DNA from: Gemmata massiliana
GTDB taxonomy: Bacteria > Planctomycetota > Planctomycetia > Gemmatales > Gemmataceae
Assembly: GCF_901538265.1 (NCBI RefSeq)
Contig: NZ_LR593886.1
Span: 3,865,738-3,929,737, forward strand
DNA: 64,000 nt
Direction of reading: 5' to 3'
Shown here: positions 43,600 to 63,500 of the stretch, piece after piece
Layout of the letters: every line of letters begins with the position of its first letter
How positions within the stretch are numbered: the stretch's first letter is position 1
Made by a program: the position numbers and the translations under genes
The notes under the pieces: generated by a model
Told to the model about the DNA's origin: nothing
The model's database searches: none
The model's input: the letters and a program-made list of their open reading frames with translations, nothing else

Positions 43600-43620
43600 A
43601 CCTCGCAACGCAATCGTGTA

Positions 43621-43685
43621 ATGGAATTAAAAGCCGGGGGCCGCGCAGAGTAAAATTCTGCGCGGCCCCCGGCTTTTAATTCCAT
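43621..43685. terminator. Bidirectional terminator, perfect 29-bp stem
   Basis: Arms 43621-43649 and 43657-43685 are perfectly complementary with a 7-nt loop. The stem has a GC-rich core (CCGGGGGCCGCGC) and A/T flanks, so it has a U-rich tail in either direction. It lies between the convergent HAD gene and the small minus-strand gene, whose stop codon it touches. Confidence 0.9.
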
Positions 43686-43867
43686 TAATTACCAGACGGT
43701 TTACCGAATCGTTTCTCGTACATGGCGTAGAGTTTTCGCCCTTTCTCGGTTACTCCAGAAGCTAAGATGACCGTCGGGTTTGCAACCGGTTTGGCGGCCG
43801 GAAGCACGCTCTGGGGTGGAGTTTGCGTTGGTGGCGTTGTCGGTGGTTTTGGGGTTTCGTCGTTCAT
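43685..43867 (-). CDS. 60-residue Pro/Thr-rich small protein, partner of the patatin gene
   Basis: 60 residues: a disordered N-terminus (PKPPTTPPTQTPPQSV) and a short basic C-terminus (GVTEKGRKLYAMYEKRFG). Starts 6 nt after the stop of the patatin gene, so almost certainly co-transcribed. No family recognised. Could be an accessory or regulatory peptide of the phospholipase, or may be unrelated. Its reality rests on position and on the terminator placed exactly at its end. Confidence 0.6.
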   Translation of the reverse strand: MNDETPKPPTTPPTQTPPQSVLPAAKPVANPTVILASGVTEKGRKLYAMYEKRFGKPSGN

Positions 43868-53220: not shown

Positions 53221-53571
53221 TCACACCTGGCCGGCTCGTACCAGCTCCGTGAGCGCCGCGAGGTGCTTGCAACCACGAGTGGCGACGAACCCGCGGCACT
53301 CGCACAGATTGGCCCCGTTCTTCGCCAGGAAGCACCCGTACCGTTCCTCGGTGCGATCCGTGCCAGCGTCGAGCTTGAACAACATGAACGCCCGCCCCGG
53401 TTCGTCCGCCGGGAACTCCTCGACGCGGTAGCGGCAGTGGTCGCGCCTTCCCGTGATGGTGAGCACGCCGGCGAAGTGGCTGATGGCGTTGTCGGTGGCA
53501 CGCTCCCAGACGAGGGCACCATGCTTTTCGGACTTGGTTGCGGGCAGAAGCTCGGTGTAGACGGTGGGCAT
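53221..53571 (-). CDS. Small SWIM zinc-finger protein
   Basis: 116 residues from the ATG at 53571. Beta-rich N-terminal part (ALVWERATDNAISHFAGVLT, YRVEEFPADEPGRAFMLFKL) and a C-terminal SWIM-type finger C-x-C-x7-C-x-H (CECRGFVATRGCKHLAAL). SWIM fingers bind DNA or proteins. Stand-alone ones of this size occur in mobile elements and plasmids. Divergent from the XRE gene, with an operator-like array between them. Confidence 0.75.
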   Translation of the reverse strand: MPTVYTELLPATKSEKHGALVWERATDNAISHFAGVLTITGRRDHCRYRVEEFPADEPGRAFMLFKLDAGTDRTEERYGCFLAKNGANLCECRGFVATRGCKHLAALTELVRAGQV

Positions 53572-53588
53572 TTGCGACTCCGAGTCAG

Positions 53589-53680
53589 GTGGCAATTCAG
53601 ACCGATGGGATATTAGTGGCAATTCAGACTGGTGTCAATCCAGGCCGATTGAAATTAGCTGAGATTGCCACCGGTGGCAA
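53589..53680. promoter_or_regulatory. Operator-like repeat array between SWIM and XRE genes
   Basis: Two identical 14-mers GTGGCAATTCAGAC at 53589-53602 and 53616-53629 (27-bp spacing), a degenerate GTGTCAA at 53632, and a perfect 16-bp palindrome TTGCCACCGGTGGCAA at 53665-53680. All share the half-site GTGGCAA. They fill the divergent promoter region, so binding by the XRE regulator would control both genes. Confidence 0.65.
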
Positions 53681-54160: not shown

Positions 54161-54484
54161 ATGGCGAAGAAATCCAAACCCAAATCCAAAGCCCAACCCA
54201 ATCCTCAAGCCGACTGGTACGCCGCGTTCGGCGAGCCGACCCGTTTGGCCCTAATCGGCGTGCTTGCCACGGGCGCGCAGACCGTAACGAAGCTCGCGCG
54301 CGAGATCGAGACTGAGATGGTGAACGTGTCGCACCACCTCAAGATCATGCGCGATGCGGATCTGGTGATTACTGAGCGCGACGGGCGATTCGTGATCTAC
54401 CAACTCATGGGCGCCACCGTGAAGGGCACGACACTCGAACTGGCCCACACATCCGGAGCCAAAGTAGCTCTGCCGCTAGAGTGA
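54161..54484 (+). CDS. ArsR-like winged-helix regulator
   Basis: 107 residues. Lys-rich N-terminal tail (KKSKPKSKAQ), then a winged helix: WYAAFGEPTRLALIGVLATG, TVTKLAREIETEMVNVSHHL, KIMRDADLVITERDGRFVIY. No metal-binding Cys pairs. Same strand as the XRE and one-helix genes, 47 nt after them. Followed by a hairpin terminator. Confidence 0.82.
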   Translation: MAKKSKPKSKAQPNPQADWYAAFGEPTRLALIGVLATGAQTVTKLAREIETEMVNVSHHLKIMRDADLVITERDGRFVIYQLMGATVKGTTLELAHTSGAKVALPLE

Positions 54485-55477: not shown

Positions 55478-55552
55478 AACGTATCATACCTTCGTCCTGA
55501 ACGCGGTTGAGCCGCTGCCCGCGGAAGTAGGGAAAATCCCGACACGCGATTA

Positions 55553-55600
55553 CTATTCTTTCTCCAACACCAGGTCGACGACCCAGCACCCCGCACGGGT
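55553..55600 (-). pseudogene. 3' remnant of a paralogous-family gene
   Basis: Nearly the same DNA as the end of the gene at 62832-63500 (shared CCAACACCAGGTCGAC and CCCAGCACCC) and encodes the same ending GCWVVDLVLEKE plus stop. Upstream codons no longer match, so only the tail of a former copy survives. The remaining 300 bp up to 55920 hold nothing recognised apart from the next gene's promoter region. Confidence 0.6.
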
Positions 55601-55920
55601 AGCCGCTGGGCTCCCCTTCATTGTCCCGATTAATCCTCTCATCGCACATTTTACGTGAAATCCCGACATACGCGCGGGGAGCGAATTCGACATACTCACA
55701 CCCGGGCCACGATACAAAACATACCCATTGGCCCCAGTTTCACTCGCACGCGCGGCCGACCGGTCGGCCGCGCGATAGATGCCACTCCGTTGTTACAGGT
55801 TCCTCCCGGCCGTAGCGTGGGCACCCGGGAGCCGCGACCTCGGGCGCACGGCCCCGTGCACCCTCGCCCCCACACCTACCTGCCGCCCGCGTTCTCATTC
55901 TCCGTTCTGCGAGGTTCACA

Positions 55921-56712
55921 ATGTTCCGATCTATTTCGCCCCGCCCTGTGGCGGCACTCGCGCTCGCGTGGGCCGCCTTTTTCACCGCCAACTCCTCGGC
56001 CCGTGCCGCGTTCACCATCAACATCAACGGTACCGTCGTCGCCACCGACGGGGGCGCCGGGGACACCGACGCGGCCGCCGGGGCCATCAATTACACGGGC
56101 ACGGTCGACGGGTACATGATCCAGATCACGACCCAAACGACCCTGAGTTCGTCCACGGTCGGGGACGTCACGACGTCCCAACTGCTCGTGGTGAACGAGT
56201 CCGGAACGGCCCCGCTGTCCGTCACTCTCGGTGACAGCACGTTCAACACGCCCGCCGGGACATTGGGGAACTCGACCCTGTTCGCGTCGTTCACCCGCAA
56301 CCTCTCGGCCGCTGCGACGACCTCGGGGACCGCGTCCATGACCAGTACCGCGGAGAGCGCATCCGGGGGCGGGACCGCGACCACGGACCCGATCGCGTTC
56401 TCCGGGTCGCTGGGCGCGGACGCGAAGACCACGGGGTTCAACCGCACGTCCGATGTGTACTCACTGTTCACGAACGTGGCCGTGGACGGGCTCAAGATCG
56501 GTGACGCGGTGGTGCTCACCGCGGACAGCGCGGTGACGGGCGGATCGGTTACCCCCACGCCCGCGCCGGCCGGGGCTGTAATGCTGCTGAGTGGGCTGCC
56601 CGTGCTGGCCCTGTGGCGGCGCGCCCAACGGGTTCGGCAAGAGTGCACGATCGCGGGAACGGAGCGAGCCAGGAAACAACTTCTGGCTCGGTCCGTTCCC
56701 GCACTCTATTGA
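55921..56712 (+). CDS. PEP-CTERM-like exported protein
   Basis: 263 residues, GAGG site before the ATG. Signal peptide (VAALALAWAAFFTANSSARA), then a Thr/Ser/Gly-rich beta domain without cysteines (TININGTVVATDGG, TQTTLSSSTVGDVTTSQLLV). The end has a sorting-signal-like layout TPTPAPAGAVMLLSGLPVLA then WRRAQRVR: a Pro motif, a hydrophobic helix and an Arg cluster, as in PEP-CTERM proteins processed by exosortase. Unusually, about 27 more residues follow the Arg cluster and they overlap a 20-bp hairpin, so the true end might differ. Confidence 0.75.
   Translation: MFRSISPRPVAALALAWAAFFTANSSARAAFTININGTVVATDGGAGDTDAAAGAINYTGTVDGYMIQITTQTTLSSSTVGDVTTSQLLVVNESGTAPLSVTLGDSTFNTPAGTLGNSTLFASFTRNLSAAATTSGTASMTSTAESASGGGTATTDPIAFSGSLGADAKTTGFNRTSDVYSLFTNVAVDGLKIGDAVVLTADSAVTGGSVTPTPAPAGAVMLLSGLPVLALWRRAQRVRQECTIAGTERARKQLLARSVPALY
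56653..56702 (+). terminator. 20-bp hairpin overlapping the end of the PEP-CTERM-like gene
   Basis: Arms 56653-56672 and 56683-56702 pair at 19 of 20 positions with a 10-nt loop. It may terminate the PEP-CTERM-like gene. It is also the first of the long series of hairpins that follows. Confidence 0.6.
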
Positions 56713-57162
56713 CGGGAATCCCCGTCGATTCAGCACTCGCACTTTTGCCAAAACGGGAATTCCCTTTTTGGCCCGCGCCCGAAGCGTCATTTGGCGTTTC
56801 GGCCTCGGATCAACGAGATCTTGATACATGGTCCACAGAAACGCGAATTCGCGTTTCTGACCGCAGCCGCCACCGAGAAGGCGGCAGTTATGTTGATCTC
56901 CGACACGACTGGCCCGCAACCGTTGCCGGGAACGCAACAGATGGCCCTCTTCGCAATGATCCGCAGTTGTAAAGATCTCCTTTACAACTGGAGCAGGCCA
57001 CAACCGTAAGCTTCTCCTTTACGGTTCAAAGGGTGTCCACAGTACGGACACCCTTTGCGCTGGTCCGCAGTTGCGACCTTCTCGGTCACAACTGGAGCCG
57101 GGCAGCAACCGTGAACTTCTCGTTTATGGTTCAAAGGGCGTTCCGGATCGTAACGCCCTTTG
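56711..57162 (+). ncRNA. Candidate structured RNA: array of about a dozen hairpins
   Basis: Successive stems at 56711-56726 (6 bp), 56747-56772 (26-nt near-palindrome, 12 of 13 pairs), 56780-56801 (9 bp with two G-U), 56809-56825 (5 bp), 56836-56859 (24-nt perfect palindrome), 56866-56885 (6 bp), 56922-56938 (5 bp), 56964-56990 (11 bp), 57002-57026, 57027-57057 (12 bp), 57068-57094 (10 of 11), 57107-57131 (10 bp with two G-U) and 57132-57162 (11 bp). Several loops contain TTCTC or CTTCTC. No frame is conserved across it. G-U pairs point to a plus-strand RNA. Promoter unknown; it may be the 3' region of the PEP-CTERM-like transcript. Confidence 0.55.
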
Positions 57163-57171
57163 GCGTGCTCC
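56964..57171 (+). repeat. Two tandem 104-nt units of three hairpins each
   Basis: Unit 1 starts at 56964 and unit 2 at 57068. Each has hairpin a (CAGTTG...CAACTG), hairpin b (AACCGT...GGTT) and hairpin c (CAAAGGG...CCCTTTG) with similar linkers (GAGCAGGCCAC, GAGCCGGGCAGC). Stem bases differ between units but pairing is kept by paired or G-U changes. A degenerate third unit of about 100 nt may precede at 56861 (same CCGCAG start). Confidence 0.75.
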
Positions 57172-57196
57172 CGTAACCATCAATTACACGAACAGA

Positions 57197-57583
57197 GTGC
57201 GGCCCGTACCGTTCGGTCGGCGTGTCGTCGAGGGCGAAGCTGAGGCGGCGGGCATCGCCCACCAGCGGCTTCACCACCTCGCGGAGCAACCGGGCGGCGA
57301 TACGATCGGGCCGGCTCCCGGTGGCCGCCACCATCGTGTAGCACGACCGGTACTCATCGCCCAACCCGGCCGCCCGAATCCAGCTCGTAACGGTTTGCCG
57401 CCCGCGGGCCAATATGGCTCCGACGAAGAGCCGCGCCAGGCGCGGAGCGGACCGCGGGACCAGGGCGGCGAGGGCGGAAACCAGTGGCACGACGGGGGCA
57501 GTGGGTGCGATGATGGCATGGCTGCGTCCGTCCAGGGCAGTGGGCTGGTGTGGCAACCGCCATCGTCCCGGTCGGACCGGCAC
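57197..57583 (-). pseudogene. Truncated transposase (IS701/DDE_5-like), N-terminal part only
   Basis: About 130 codons: PLVSALAALVPRSAPRLARL, LARGRQTVTSWIRAAGLGDE, ARRLSFALDDTPTERYGPH with the first catalytic Asp pair. Matching sequence ends abruptly after GPH at 57197 and the rest of the gene is absent, replaced by the hairpin array. No terminal repeats found. Its truncation point abuts the array. Confidence 0.75.
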
Positions 57584-57839
57584 CCGTCTATTCCTGGCAC
57601 CTCAACCACTCATTCCAACGAAATCACGGAAACTACAGATGAGTGGGTCTCACGGATACGAGCGAGGGCCGAGGTGAAGCACCCATCGATAAGCAGATTG
57701 CTGCAATAGCAGCCCACACGTAAATTCCAAGAATCGCTCCCGAAATTATTGAAAATTTATTTGGCGTGTTCTGGCACAATTGTTACAACCGTTTTGAAAT
57801 CACCTCCCCTCATGTCTTCTTTCACCTATCGGTGTTTGC

Positions 57840-59007
57840 GTGACAACAATCATAGCTATCTGTCCGTATTGCCGCTCCGGCGGGGTGAGGGCCAAGAGCA
57901 CTGCACTGGGTGCCAGCGCCAAGTGCCCCAAGTGCAAGAGCAGTTTCACGATCGTTCCGGAAGACGACCTCCCGGATTGGGTCGCGAAAACCAGCGCGGA
58001 TGCGGTCGTGATCTCCGCACCATCGGCCGAGAAGCCGAAGCTGAAACTGCTCGCGGTCGAAGAGACCCGCGCGATGGACGCCCTACCCGACGTGACCGAG
58101 CCGTCGCCCGTTCTGCCCGCAGAGCCGAGCCCACAATCTCGCCCCACGACGAAGCCGGCCCCGGGCCCTCGCCCGACGTGGACGAACCGGACGCGGCCAC
58201 TGATACCAGCTTCTTGCTCGCGCTCGGGGCGCTCACGCTCGTGGGGCCAACGGTGCTGGCGTCTCAACTCCCGTTCGGCCGGCTCATCGCACTCGCCGTG
58301 GCCGCGATCGGGCTCGTCGGGGGGCTACTGTGTCTCGGTGCGGAAGGGCGCGCCCGGGTCGGAGGAGCGCTGGCGGCCCGCTGCACGCGGGCGTTGCGGT
58401 GGTTGTGCTGCTGCTCCCGTCGTGGCTCAACCTGGACCCGTGGGAAACCCCGCCAGTCGAGGAACCACAAGGCCCGGTCGTGGTCGAGCATGGGAGCGGC
58501 GTCAAGACGATGACGACTCTGGGCGCGGTGCTCGATGCCGGGCGCAATTCGTGGCAACTCAAGGACATCCGCGTAATGGTCCGGTCCGCGCTGGGACCGA
58601 TCGAGCTCCGCGGACCGGACAACGCCAAGCGCATGACGAAGGAATCGTATCTCCAACTTTCTGTACAAATCGCCAACGTCGGTGTCGAACGCGACGTTCC
58701 ACTCTCCGGATGGGCCACCGGCCTGACCACGGACGGTGTGCGCGTGACCGACGGATCGGGCAAGCCGCTCGACCCGGCGAAATTTGAGGGCACGTTCACT
58801 CCGGATCGTGGGCGCCCCGCCTCGCGCGCGATGCCCGGGAACGCGTCCGAGGTTCGGCTCCTGTTCCCCTCTCCACCGAAAAAGGCCGATCCGATCCAGG
58901 TGCACCTCTCCGGCGCCGCCATCGGGATGCCCGAGGACATCAAGTTCCGAATCGGCGCGACCGGCTTCCAGATTCGTCCCCCGGGATCGCAGGACATACC
59001 CCGTTAG
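57840..59007 (+). pseudogene. Zinc-ribbon, multi-helix membrane protein gene with two -1 frame breaks
   Basis: Starts at a GTG (57840) with a zinc ribbon CPYCRSGGVRAKS...CPKCKSSF. An acidic/Pro linker follows to about 58168, where one base is missing (C-run). The next frame gives hydrophobic helices (FLLALGALTLVGPTVLASQL, LIALAVAAIGLVGGLLCLGA). Another base is missing near 58376, after which AGVAVVVLLLPSWLNLDPW and an extracytoplasmic domain (LGAVLDAGRNSWQLKDIRVM, YLQLSVQIANVGVERDVPLS) run to 59007. Corrected length about 389 residues. Located 10 bp upstream of the DUF1559 gene, probably one operon. Confidence 0.75.
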
Positions 59008-59017
59008 GAGATGGGCC

Positions 59018-59929
59018 GTGCTCAAAAGAAGAGCGTTCACGCTGATCGAGTTGTTGGTCGTCATCGCCATCATCTCGATTCTGATCGGGATGCTGTTACC
59101 GGCCGTGCAGAAGGCGCGCGAGGCCGCGGCGCGCATGGCCTGCTCCAACAACCTGAAGCAGATCGGGTTGGCCATGCACATGCACCACAACAGCTTCGAG
59201 CGGTTGCCCCCGTCGCGCGTGTACCCGATCCTCGTGATCGTCCCCCCCGTGCAACCGGACAACCTGGTCCATGAGGGCGGCGCGACCTGGGCGGTGTTCA
59301 TTCTGCCCAATCTCGAAGAGGAGAACTTTTACCGGAAATGGGCCCTCGGGAACACCTACTACGACCAGAGCCCGGACGCTCGGCAGTACAACGTGAAGGG
59401 CTACTTCTGCCCGTCGCGCCGGAGCAGCAAGGACGGCTTGAGCGTGTTCGGGGACACCCCACAGATCATCCCGACCAAAGGCTACCCCCACTTCCCCGGC
59501 GGGCTGTCCGACTACGCGGTGGTCCTCGACCCGAACGGAGCCGACACGCCGAGCCAGTCGAACCCCACATTGAACGGTTCGTTCCAAAGAGAAACCGGAT
59601 TCCGGTTCGTCGACTTCAGTGACGGGTTAACCAACACGCTCCTCGTCGGTGAAAAGCAGGTCGCGAAGAGCAAGCACGGCGTCGGGTGGACGGACTGCTC
59701 GACATACAACGGGAACTACGGACAGTGCTCGAGCCGCGCCGCCTCGCGCTTGTACCCACTGACCACGAACCCGAACGATACCGGGTGGAAGTTCGGGAGC
59801 CGGCACGCCGGCGTCGTGCAGTTCTGCTTCGCCGACGGCGGTGTGCGGGCGCTCCCGGAATCCATCAACCCGACCATCCTTGAGCTGCTCACGACGCGCA
59901 ACGACGGGCAAGTGATCCCCGAATACTAA
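59018..59929 (+). CDS. DUF1559 protein with prepilin-like N-terminus
   Basis: 303 residues from the GTG at 59018, which has an AGGAG site 8 nt upstream. The long upstream open frame is a shadow. Starts [20 protein letters not shown], then [37 protein letters not shown] and the C-terminal signature [20 protein letters not shown]. Members are exported, type IV pilin-like planctomycete proteins present in many copies per genome. Role unknown. Intact, unlike the copy at 27824-29009. Confidence 0.92.
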
Positions 59930-60643
59930 GCGGATGCCACCAGGAAGCAGAGCCCGCGCATCGGACGGCCCTCGTATGGGAAACAGTTCGGATTCCGTTC
60001 CACGTCACGAGCACCGTCGGGCGGCTCTACAGTCCCAAATCGAGCCTACACCAGCAGCCTGACGCGGCCGCACATGCCCGGAACGCCAGATCCGCTCAGT
60101 ACGTCGGCGACGAATGGGCGGACGACAACGAGTCATTAGTATAGGACCGTCGACACCCGCCACTCGGTTTGGGCTGCCGACGAGGTGACCTGCTCCCATT
60201 TTGTGTACCAGGCGGTGCGAGAGTCGGTTTAACCGTCACTCGCGTGCCCACAGTTCGGCGACGGCTCTTGCGGCGTCGAACCGCGGGTGTCCCGCTGCGA
60301 ATGCCGCAGGCGTTGGGTACAGCCTTTGAACACGAACAGAGTGCGGACCGCACTCACGCATCCCATCGGTTGCGTTTCAGTATCGCGTGCGACCGCGTAC
60401 ATTGGACAAATGATACTCCCAAAAGTGCCCGTTTTGCACCCTTGAAAACGGCCGTTTGCATTGGTTTCCAAGCAAATCTAAGCACCCCCATTTGTCGCCT
60501 CACACTCGAATGTTCTGACAATAACGGTTCGCCCGAAATGCCACTTTTCCTAGCCTCAAACAACCTGGAACCCTTTATTTCCAAGGGTTTCACGGTTCGC
60601 CCGATTTGTTGCGTGTCGGAGATCGACACGCGCGGTGGTTCGC
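59930..60643. other. Gene-free region with small hairpins
   Basis: 714 bp without a convincing ORF. Contains short hairpins such as AACCCTT/AAGGGTT (about 60570-60590) and GTGTCG/CGACAC (about 60613-60630), which may terminate transcription from either side. No repeat or mobile element recognised up to copy B. Confidence 0.45.
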
Positions 60644-60847
60644 GAAGTGAAAGTCGGCTGGGTAGGTAGCCCTTGTGCCCGGCCGTCGGGCAGAGGTCGG
60701 AGCCGTACCACGAGGAGAACGCCCCGACAGACGCGATTGTGGCGATGCAGGATGCCGGGCACTCACGCCTGATCCCATGACAGCGGCTACGGCCATTGCG
60801 GAACGGGGAACAGCCTGACGCCCCTGTCACCGGGCGGGCCTTACGGC
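60644..60847. repeat. Dispersed 0.2-kb repeat, copy B
   Basis: Second copy of the element at 55253-55477, same orientation. Includes the conserved hairpin TGCCCG/CGGGCA at 60676-60692 and the end block CCTGACGCCCCTGTCACCGG. It lies in a gene-free region, which supports a non-coding element. The 157 bp from here to 61004 hold nothing recognised. Confidence 0.7.
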
Positions 60848-62831: not shown

Positions 62832-63500
62832 TTATTCTTTTGCCAACACCAGGTCGACAACCCAGCACCCGCGTACGTGCGGCCCGGGGCTGCGGCAGTG
62901 TCCGAGCACGTCGGCGCTATCACACCCCGCGTCTTGGAGCGCATCCGCCAGGATCGGCATCGCGCCGAAGTCGCGGGACTCGTACATCTGGGATGCCAGC
63001 GCGACTGCGGTGGAGCTGCGCCAGAAGGGTGAGAAGGTAACCGGGCGGAATGGGTTGCGGAAAATGCACCGTGCGAACAGGGCAGCGGCTAGCTGGTAAG
63101 AGCCCGACCGAGCGTCGAAACGGTCCGGCAGTGTCACATCTTGAGCCAGGGCCGCCCATCGGCCGTGAGCGGACAGAGTCCGGCCGGCCGACCGCACCGA
63201 TACCGCGCCGAGGTCATCAGACTCGTAGGCCCTAAATTCTTGATTGAGCCGGGATGCTTCCATCGTTAGCCGCACGACCTCTTCATCTGAGATGGTCCCG
63301 TCGGCGACCTGCTCTGCCGCGTCAATTAGCGCCCCCAATCGGGCGGTTGGCCACACATCCGCCCACTGCCGACTACACGCAACCGCCAACAACCTCATTT
63401 TCCGCTCGGAGCGACGAGGGGATTCCATGATGAGACCGAGCAAGAAACGATACGTTTTTTGGTCCCACTCATTGGCGCGCATGTGTTCCTCTTCGGTCAT
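62832..63500 (-). CDS. Gemmata-type paralogous-family protein
   Basis: 222 residues from the ATG at 63500 (AGGGG site, alternative ATG at 63482). Pattern of a family expanded in Gemmata and relatives: KMRLLAVACSRQWADVWPT, RCIFRNPFRPVTFSPFW, ILADALQDAGCDSADVLGHC and the end HVRGCWVVDLVLAKE. These proteins resemble those associated with repeat-companion (TIGR02996-like) proteins. No enzymatic motif. A remnant of another copy lies at 55553-55600. Confidence 0.78.
   Translation of the reverse strand: MTEEEHMRANEWDQKTYRFLLGLIMESPRRSERKMRLLAVACSRQWADVWPTARLGALIDAAEQVADGTISDEEVVRLTMEASRLNQEFRAYESDDLGAVSVRSAGRTLSAHGRWAALAQDVTLPDRFDARSGSYQLAAALFARCIFRNPFRPVTFSPFWRSSTAVALASQMYESRDFGAMPILADALQDAGCDSADVLGHCRSPGPHVRGCWVVDLVLAKE

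Follow-up and report, generated by a model that had tools for sequence, protein, structure and literature searches.

REP/BIME sequences are intergenic arrays of short hairpins, and the array described here resembles them, with their RAYT transposases, in being an intergenic array of this kind. It differs in its low copy number, with eight places including the one in the window, and REP-like dispersal by a Y1 transposase was rejected because this genome gave no match to Y1_Tnp (PF01797), in a search whose control was positive in 5 of 14 genomes. Rickettsia palindromic elements (RPEs) are described as palindromic repeats that also occur in frame inside genes (PMC10969869). The likeness lies in a palindrome that occurs in frame within genes as well as outside them; RPEs are, however, about 150 bp long and are inserted in various ORFs, whereas the unit here is 27 nt long, keeps one fixed codon phase, occurs in two regulator families and shows no visible insertion. 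A mutational process is also relevant: polymerase template switching between the arms of inverted repeats in yeast coding genes homogenises the arms and inverts the spacer, the latter only with arms longer than 9 bp, as stated in PMC8604942, and PMC8794818 makes a similar point for RNA genes. Arm homogenisation and spacer inversion, known there from coding DNA too, are shared with our locus, but the yeast events are scattered over genes (PMC8604942), whereas here one palindrome recurs in distant phages at one and the same site of the protein and, in addition, in extragenic arrays. Finally, P22_AR_N antirepressor (PF10547) and RhuM (PF13310) genes hold in their coding sequence the 27-nt palindrome that they share with part of the array; the array itself is non-coding. 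On balance, we consider it probable that the array is a cluster of non-coding DNA palindromes in a decayed and repeatedly duplicated mobile island, partly of a phage-regulator type and kept paired at the level of DNA.

The window, that is, the whole stretch of DNA analysed, comprises 64,000 nt of the Gemmata massiliana chromosome (contig NZ_LR593886.1), and its features are collected in Table 1. The initial annotation had described about a dozen hairpins densely packed at 56711-57162, and this description holds: the plus strand folds with -208 kcal/mol, its 100 dinucleotide shuffles averaging -145.46 (sd 5.37; z -11.65), the minus strand reaches z -8.99 against 100 such shuffles, and none of the 100 shuffles matched the real energy on either strand. 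An inverted-repeat scan of 56641-57206, allowing Watson-Crick pairs only and penalising G.T and A.C equally, found 12 non-overlapping hairpins covering 59% of the sequence. Together with the weaker H3 and H5, which stay under the cut-off owing to G.T pairs and mismatches, they make up the 14 hairpins named here. Both palindromes centred on GAATTC were recovered, one with a single mismatch and one perfect, and the recurrent loops proved to be of TTCTC, ATCTC and GAGAA kinds. The perfect core of H2, CGGGAATTCCCG, is present at 6 other places of the genome and absent from the window copy. Three of the hairpins form a unit A-B-C, repeated in tandem with a 104-nt period (56958-57057 and 57062-57162). 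As previously noted, no reading frame spans the whole array; mechanical ORFs cover parts of it (119 aa on the plus strand, 56613-56972; 180 aa on the minus strand, 56461-57003; 212 aa on the plus strand, from 57071). The longest hairpin detected in the window lies far from the array, at 43619-43687, and has a perfect 31-bp stem with AT-rich ends and a G+C-rich core, closed by a 7-nt loop.

Table 1. Genes, hairpins and repeat segments in and around the array (window positions; profile scores for plus and minus strands in brackets)
Feature	Position	Strand	Remarks
Small gene, SWIM-like	53221-53622	-	CxC...CxH pattern read as SWIM-like; no Pfam match
ArsR-type HTH gene	54161-54484	+	paralog of recurrent island module
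PEP-CTERM-like ORF	55921-56712	+	upstream of array; name from initial annotation, no Pfam match; duplicated with array near C1:8195 kb
Hairpin, 20-bp stem	56653-56702	+	first strong one; within 3' end of ORF 55921-56712, outside the range first reported
H1	56708-56729	+	around GACGGGAATCCCCGTC
Hairpin array as first described	56711-57162	+	fold z -11.65; modular relatives elsewhere
H2, palindrome	56747-56772		GAATTC centre, one mismatch
H3, weak	56781-56800	+	two G.T pairs
Perfect palindrome	56836-56859		GAATTC centre
H4	56866-56885	+	loop ACCGAGAA
H5	56885-56911	+	antirepressor type; Watson-Crick pairs 8/11; profile 24.3 (+), 20.6 (-)
H6	56917-56943	+	weak antirepressor-type score, 11.0 (+), 11.8 (-), both below simulated maximum 13.1
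Hairpin A, copy 1 (A1)	56964-56990	+	antirepressor type; profile 19.1 (+), 14.7 (-)
Hairpin B, copy 1 (B1)	57002-57026	+	absent among the 60 profile matches listed
Hairpin C, copy 1	57027-57057	+	absent among the profile matches listed
Hairpin A, copy 2 (A2)	57068-57094	+	antirepressor type; profile 13.6 (+), no (-) value among the matches listed
Hairpin B, copy 2 (B2)	57107-57131	+	antirepressor type; profile 19.7 (+), 15.7 (-)
Hairpin C, copy 2	57132-57162	+	centre is reverse complement of L018 centre
17-bp direct repeat, left copy	57186-57202	+	at element break
Interrupting segment, 3.1 kb	57203-60329		DDE_5 transposase remnant, unknown gene, DUF1559 protein
Repeat-element tail (continuation)	60330-60840	+	starts with right 17-bp repeat copy, 60330-60346

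The array is real and modular and is repeated in this chromosome and in a sister species. Related sequence lies at seven other places of the 10.1-Mb chromosome, the one at 2.158 Mb being a short palindrome match only. A blastn search among 40 relatives gave eight matches in the sister species (G009) and one weak match in a draft genome (G005), and clear arrays beyond this genome were found in G009 alone. A covariance model of the unit A-B-C matched 3 of the 19 genomes of the genus at E<=0.01, one of them weakly, and blastn of the array against phage and plasmid records returned no match at E<=0.1. Ten array loci were counted in all, seven in this genome (G000, window included) and three in G009. 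Near C1:8195 kb (8.195 Mb) the PEP-CTERM-like gene is duplicated together with its array at 78% identity, and two other relatives of the array have 2.2 kb in common at 94.5%, with the divergence starting inside the array.

Several arrays are accompanied by a small SWIM-like gene, an ArsR-type HTH gene and variable cargo. An ArsR paralog lies within 5 kb of 6 of the 10 array loci (4/7 in G000, 2/3 in G009), two of the six being duplicates of two others, and its orientation is identical each time; such proximity is expected by chance at about 1.3% and 0.6% per locus in the two genomes. A tyrosine integrase is found about 4.6 kb from one G009 array, and the element copy of the window is broken, with its tail 3.1 kb away and a 17-bp repeat at the break. 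The idea that a hairpin array follows every ArsR paralog was rejected, as by our own reading array-type hairpins occur up to 3.5 kb downstream of only 8 of the 27 paralogs. In L142 and L148/L158 a hairpin stands 45 nt past the ArsR stop, with arms identical in two species and a changed loop. A second repeat (a AAACCCTT-like stem, TTTCC and AAGGGTTTC) adjoins several arrays (window 60571-60688, L016 1846-2141, L029 2026-2139), with two tandem copies in L016, and multicopy sequence pieces at window 62833-63066, overlapping ORF 62832-63500, and 55553-55597 recur in several array loci. Perfect 29-bp arms with a 27-nt loop were seen in L042 (10203-10287), close to a carbonic-anhydrase-like gene and the H5-type hairpin; L046, its counterpart in G009, lacks such arms.

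A link with antirepressor genes, which was not among the suggestions of the initial annotation, emerged from a pair profile of 66 antirepressor gene palindromes from outside the genus, built only from segments in which seven or more of the 11 pairs form and thereby selecting for pairing. This gene profile picks out the arrays. Over 264 kb of this genome it gave 37 matches, with both strands and duplicated loci counted, above 13.1, the maximum of one equal-length Markov simulation; 24 of them lie in arrays, which make up 3,234 bp or 1.2% of this DNA, and 13 elsewhere. Four of the 14 window hairpins pass on the plus strand (H5, B2, A1 and A2), and the GAATTC palindromes, H1, H3, H4, B1 and both copies of C are absent among the 60 profile matches listed. 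The array is therefore a mixture, in which the regulator type accounts for only a part. As part of the same joint reading, and with the same probability, H5, A and one B would represent the palindrome type that is also found in frame and in fixed codon phase in the P22_AR_N and RhuM genes of phages and prophages.

Within the genus, antirepressor genes share arms and loops with the arrays, for example cagttgtgtcg-GAGAT-cgacacaactg in L183. Among 12 places with a PF10547 match, eight have a hairpin score of at least 8 at the motif (L173-L177, L179, L180, L183), two lack such a hairpin (L181, L184) and one is unreadable in the frame used (L178); in L182 (G000:C1:3992866) the antirepressor gene is broken and a hairpin remains. 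Both P22_AR_N matches in this genome are at a large distance from the window array. For a wider sample, 90 further loci were taken from viral (58) and genome (32) contigs, and 62 were analysed after 18 without the anchor motif and 10 repeats had been dropped. On average, synonymous recoding weakens the palindrome of these genes: the mean hairpin score at the motif is 9.73, compared to 6.24 after recoding with the gene's own codons, with p<=0.05 in 38/62 and p<=0.005 in 13/62, and the motif site is the best hairpin of the whole domain in 54 of the 62 loci.

With phage and genus genes added, 113 segments yielded 83 non-redundant genes, L193 having dropped out, in which seven rows scoring 1-4, most probably mis-anchored, were kept. 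These genes pair at 9.58 of 13 positions versus 5.90 (sd 0.17) with 3' arms shuffled among genes (z 21), and twelve other axes have 0.18-0.33 of positions paired, compared to 0.74 at the palindrome axis. The four inner pairs that link third codon positions (5-29, 8-26, 11-23, 14-20) lie above expectation, with z from 6.4 to 10.0, unlike the outermost pair (2-32; z 1.2). The excess at third positions is hard to explain by protein constraint alone, and base-composition differences between genomes may add a little to it. Among 41 disjoint sister pairs (451 cells), limited to segments with at least 7/11 pairs (102/113) and in this way selecting for pairing, 87 double changes keep the pairing, 15 do not and 68 changes are single, where 41 doubles would be expected if the two sides were independent. 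The encoded residues track the pairing, as ATV goes with TVA or TVG, AVV with TTG, ATT with VVA, ARV with THD and AGM with IPS. Weaker cases also occur: the gene of the P22-like coliphage N7 pairs at 9/11, L200 scores only 4, and one further set of 20 loci includes 12 in which the motif was not located. In P22_AR_N genes with at least 8/11 pairs, A-C outnumbers G-U on the coding strand (34 vs 18, p 0.04; 20 vs 13, p 0.30, when pair 9-25 is left out), so the palindrome is not what one would expect of an mRNA hairpin.

The same palindrome, in the codon phase seen in P22_AR_N, was found in all three RhuM genes scanned. Nine non-redundant genes, from 12 of 18 loci that could be placed, pair at 10.56 of 12 positions versus 6.08 when shuffled, and the highest of 5,000 shuffles reached 9.56; within the genus, RhuM is present in none of the 19 genomes. 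In regard to the protein, an AlphaFold2 model of the antirepressor (mean pLDDT 84.5) places the palindrome-coded residues 53-62 (our own count) on one predicted strand, 55-61, following two helices. A palindrome coding for a whole beta-hairpin was accordingly discarded as an idea, the model having a single strand over these residues, and no PDB relative of the P22_AR_N domain was found by sequence at E<=0.1. Titles and opening lines of abstracts, seen for part of the matching open-access papers, describe no palindrome in antirepressor or RhuM genes, and the word 'hairpin' is absent from PMC3121763.

Solitary copies extend the range of the palindrome in the genus. The outer-arm pattern of hairpin A occurs at 22 places in 7 of the 19 genomes, 18 of them exactly 27 nt long, compared to three places for a reversed control pattern. 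Thirteen of the matched loci were read in detail. Some matches lie inside P22_AR_N antirepressor genes, as W-AVVSEIDTTGADGK in L183/L072. In L167, L170, L162, L158 and L142 a 27-nt hairpin stands 5-45 nt past the stop of a mechanical ORF, L159, L161 and L163 are unlike the hairpin A type, and L166 and L171 have 26 nt. The draft genome G005 (290 contigs) holds solitary copies past stop codons and gave no P22_AR_N match, so the palindrome need not descend from a local gene. In viral contigs, matches to CAGTTGT...ACAACTG (L298-L377) span 27 nt in 67 of the 80 loci listed, far more often than 26 or 28 nt, even though 34 of these 67 lack any inner pair. Two loose palindrome patterns in viral contigs gave at least three inner pairs in 16 and 13 of the 80 loci listed per scan, drawn from at least 120 stretches each; since few such matches have their inner stems paired, the outer arms alone are not diagnostic.

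In regard to the way in which the hairpins change, 10 of 34 pairs in the A-B-C alignment (alignment A1, nine sequences) have at least one double compensated change. L167 and L170 are two copies of a small gene, closely alike in the sequence upstream of it, and their post-stop hairpins differ by two compensated pairs and by no uncompensated stem change. Loops of hairpins A and B interchange between TTCTC-like and GAGAA-like forms, and in hairpin C the centre of one copy is exactly the reverse complement of that of another. The pattern seen between array copies is thereby one of arm homogenisation and spacer inversion, and the underlying mutation process could be replication template switching between the arms, which would both keep the pairing and diversify it. 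Copies would have risen through tandem duplication of the 104-nt unit and through duplication together with adjacent genes. The antirepressor-type hairpins may descend from, or share a source with, the palindromes in antirepressor genes of integrated elements.

Other origins could be considered for these structures. One of them is a portable palindromic element that, similar to the RPEs, enters intergenic sites and coding frames, the arrays being sites of repeated insertion. The same 27-nt hairpin in arrays, past the stops of mechanical ORFs and in frame in antirepressor genes would agree with it, as would its presence in G005 in the absence of a P22_AR_N match and its identical codon phase in RhuM. 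We nevertheless regard such an element as unlikely, given that no empty site, which would prove movement or insertion, was seen among the aligned loci, that the stretch in 10 aligned P22_AR_N proteins is constant in length except for one residue beside a tryptophan, with no insertion visible, that the genome has no match to a Y1/RAYT-type transposase, and that mechanical ORFs end near some post-stop hairpins on the opposite strand too. Of the three suggestions of the initial annotation, the substrate of a mobile element fits best, in that a dispersed modular repeat is tied to mobile-island genes. It had also been proposed that the array is a multi-hairpin 3' UTR, and a transcription terminator, or a structure that protects the mRNA 3' end of the gene upstream, would suit the window and its duplicate, where the array follows a same-strand gene, as well as the solitary copies just past stop codons. 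According to crude gene calling, five of the 10 loci (window, L038-L041) are immediately preceded by a gene on the same strand and the other five (L042-L046) are not, and 55500-57400 has two terminator-like sites (a hairpin followed by a T run), one of them outside the array, versus a mean of 2.0 in 50 shuffles; as a significant G-U signature is also missing, we hold a role of this kind to be improbable.

The G-U signature bears equally on a new structured non-coding RNA, which the initial annotation had inferred in part from G-U pairs. The stems of all arrays together have 23 G.T and 13 A.C mismatches, an excess that is not significant (binomial p 0.13) and in which inherited copies are counted repeatedly. 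Strong folding, the compensated changes and the somewhat better folding of the plus strand are what such an RNA would lead one to expect; the compensated changes can, however, be explained by the published template switching, a correction of arms at the DNA level, and are therefore not on their own evidence for RNA. Both strands fold, the loops occur in either orientation as they flip strand, the array was found in few genomes, and Rfam 15, searched at gathering score, gave no family for the entire window or for 18 loci with gene palindromes, with a relaxed search of 56600-57250 giving two weak microRNA-model matches at 56650-56703. An RNA of this kind consequently appears very improbable to us.

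Returning to a palindrome cluster kept paired as DNA, the persistence of the gene palindrome in distant phages favours selection over mutation, without proving it. A wider reading, which we put forward tentatively and consider possible rather than probable, is that P22_AR_N and RhuM genes carry a conserved self-complementary DNA cassette in which pairing, and not the protein alone, sets the residues of the beta-strand, under selection at the nucleic-acid level across phyla. The cassette might be a site for a DNA-binding partner or serve palindrome-dependent diversification, and in the genus of the window it would also occur outside genes, helping to build the arrays. If the gene palindrome is under selection, DNA pairing would limit the freedom of the protein in phage lysis-lysogeny regulators, which would change the reading of covariation in such proteins and point to an unknown function at the DNA level. 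If it is purely mutational, template switching would here be writing protein sequence, in an example that crosses phyla. In both cases, the array provides extragenic copies in which the pairing can be followed without protein constraint.
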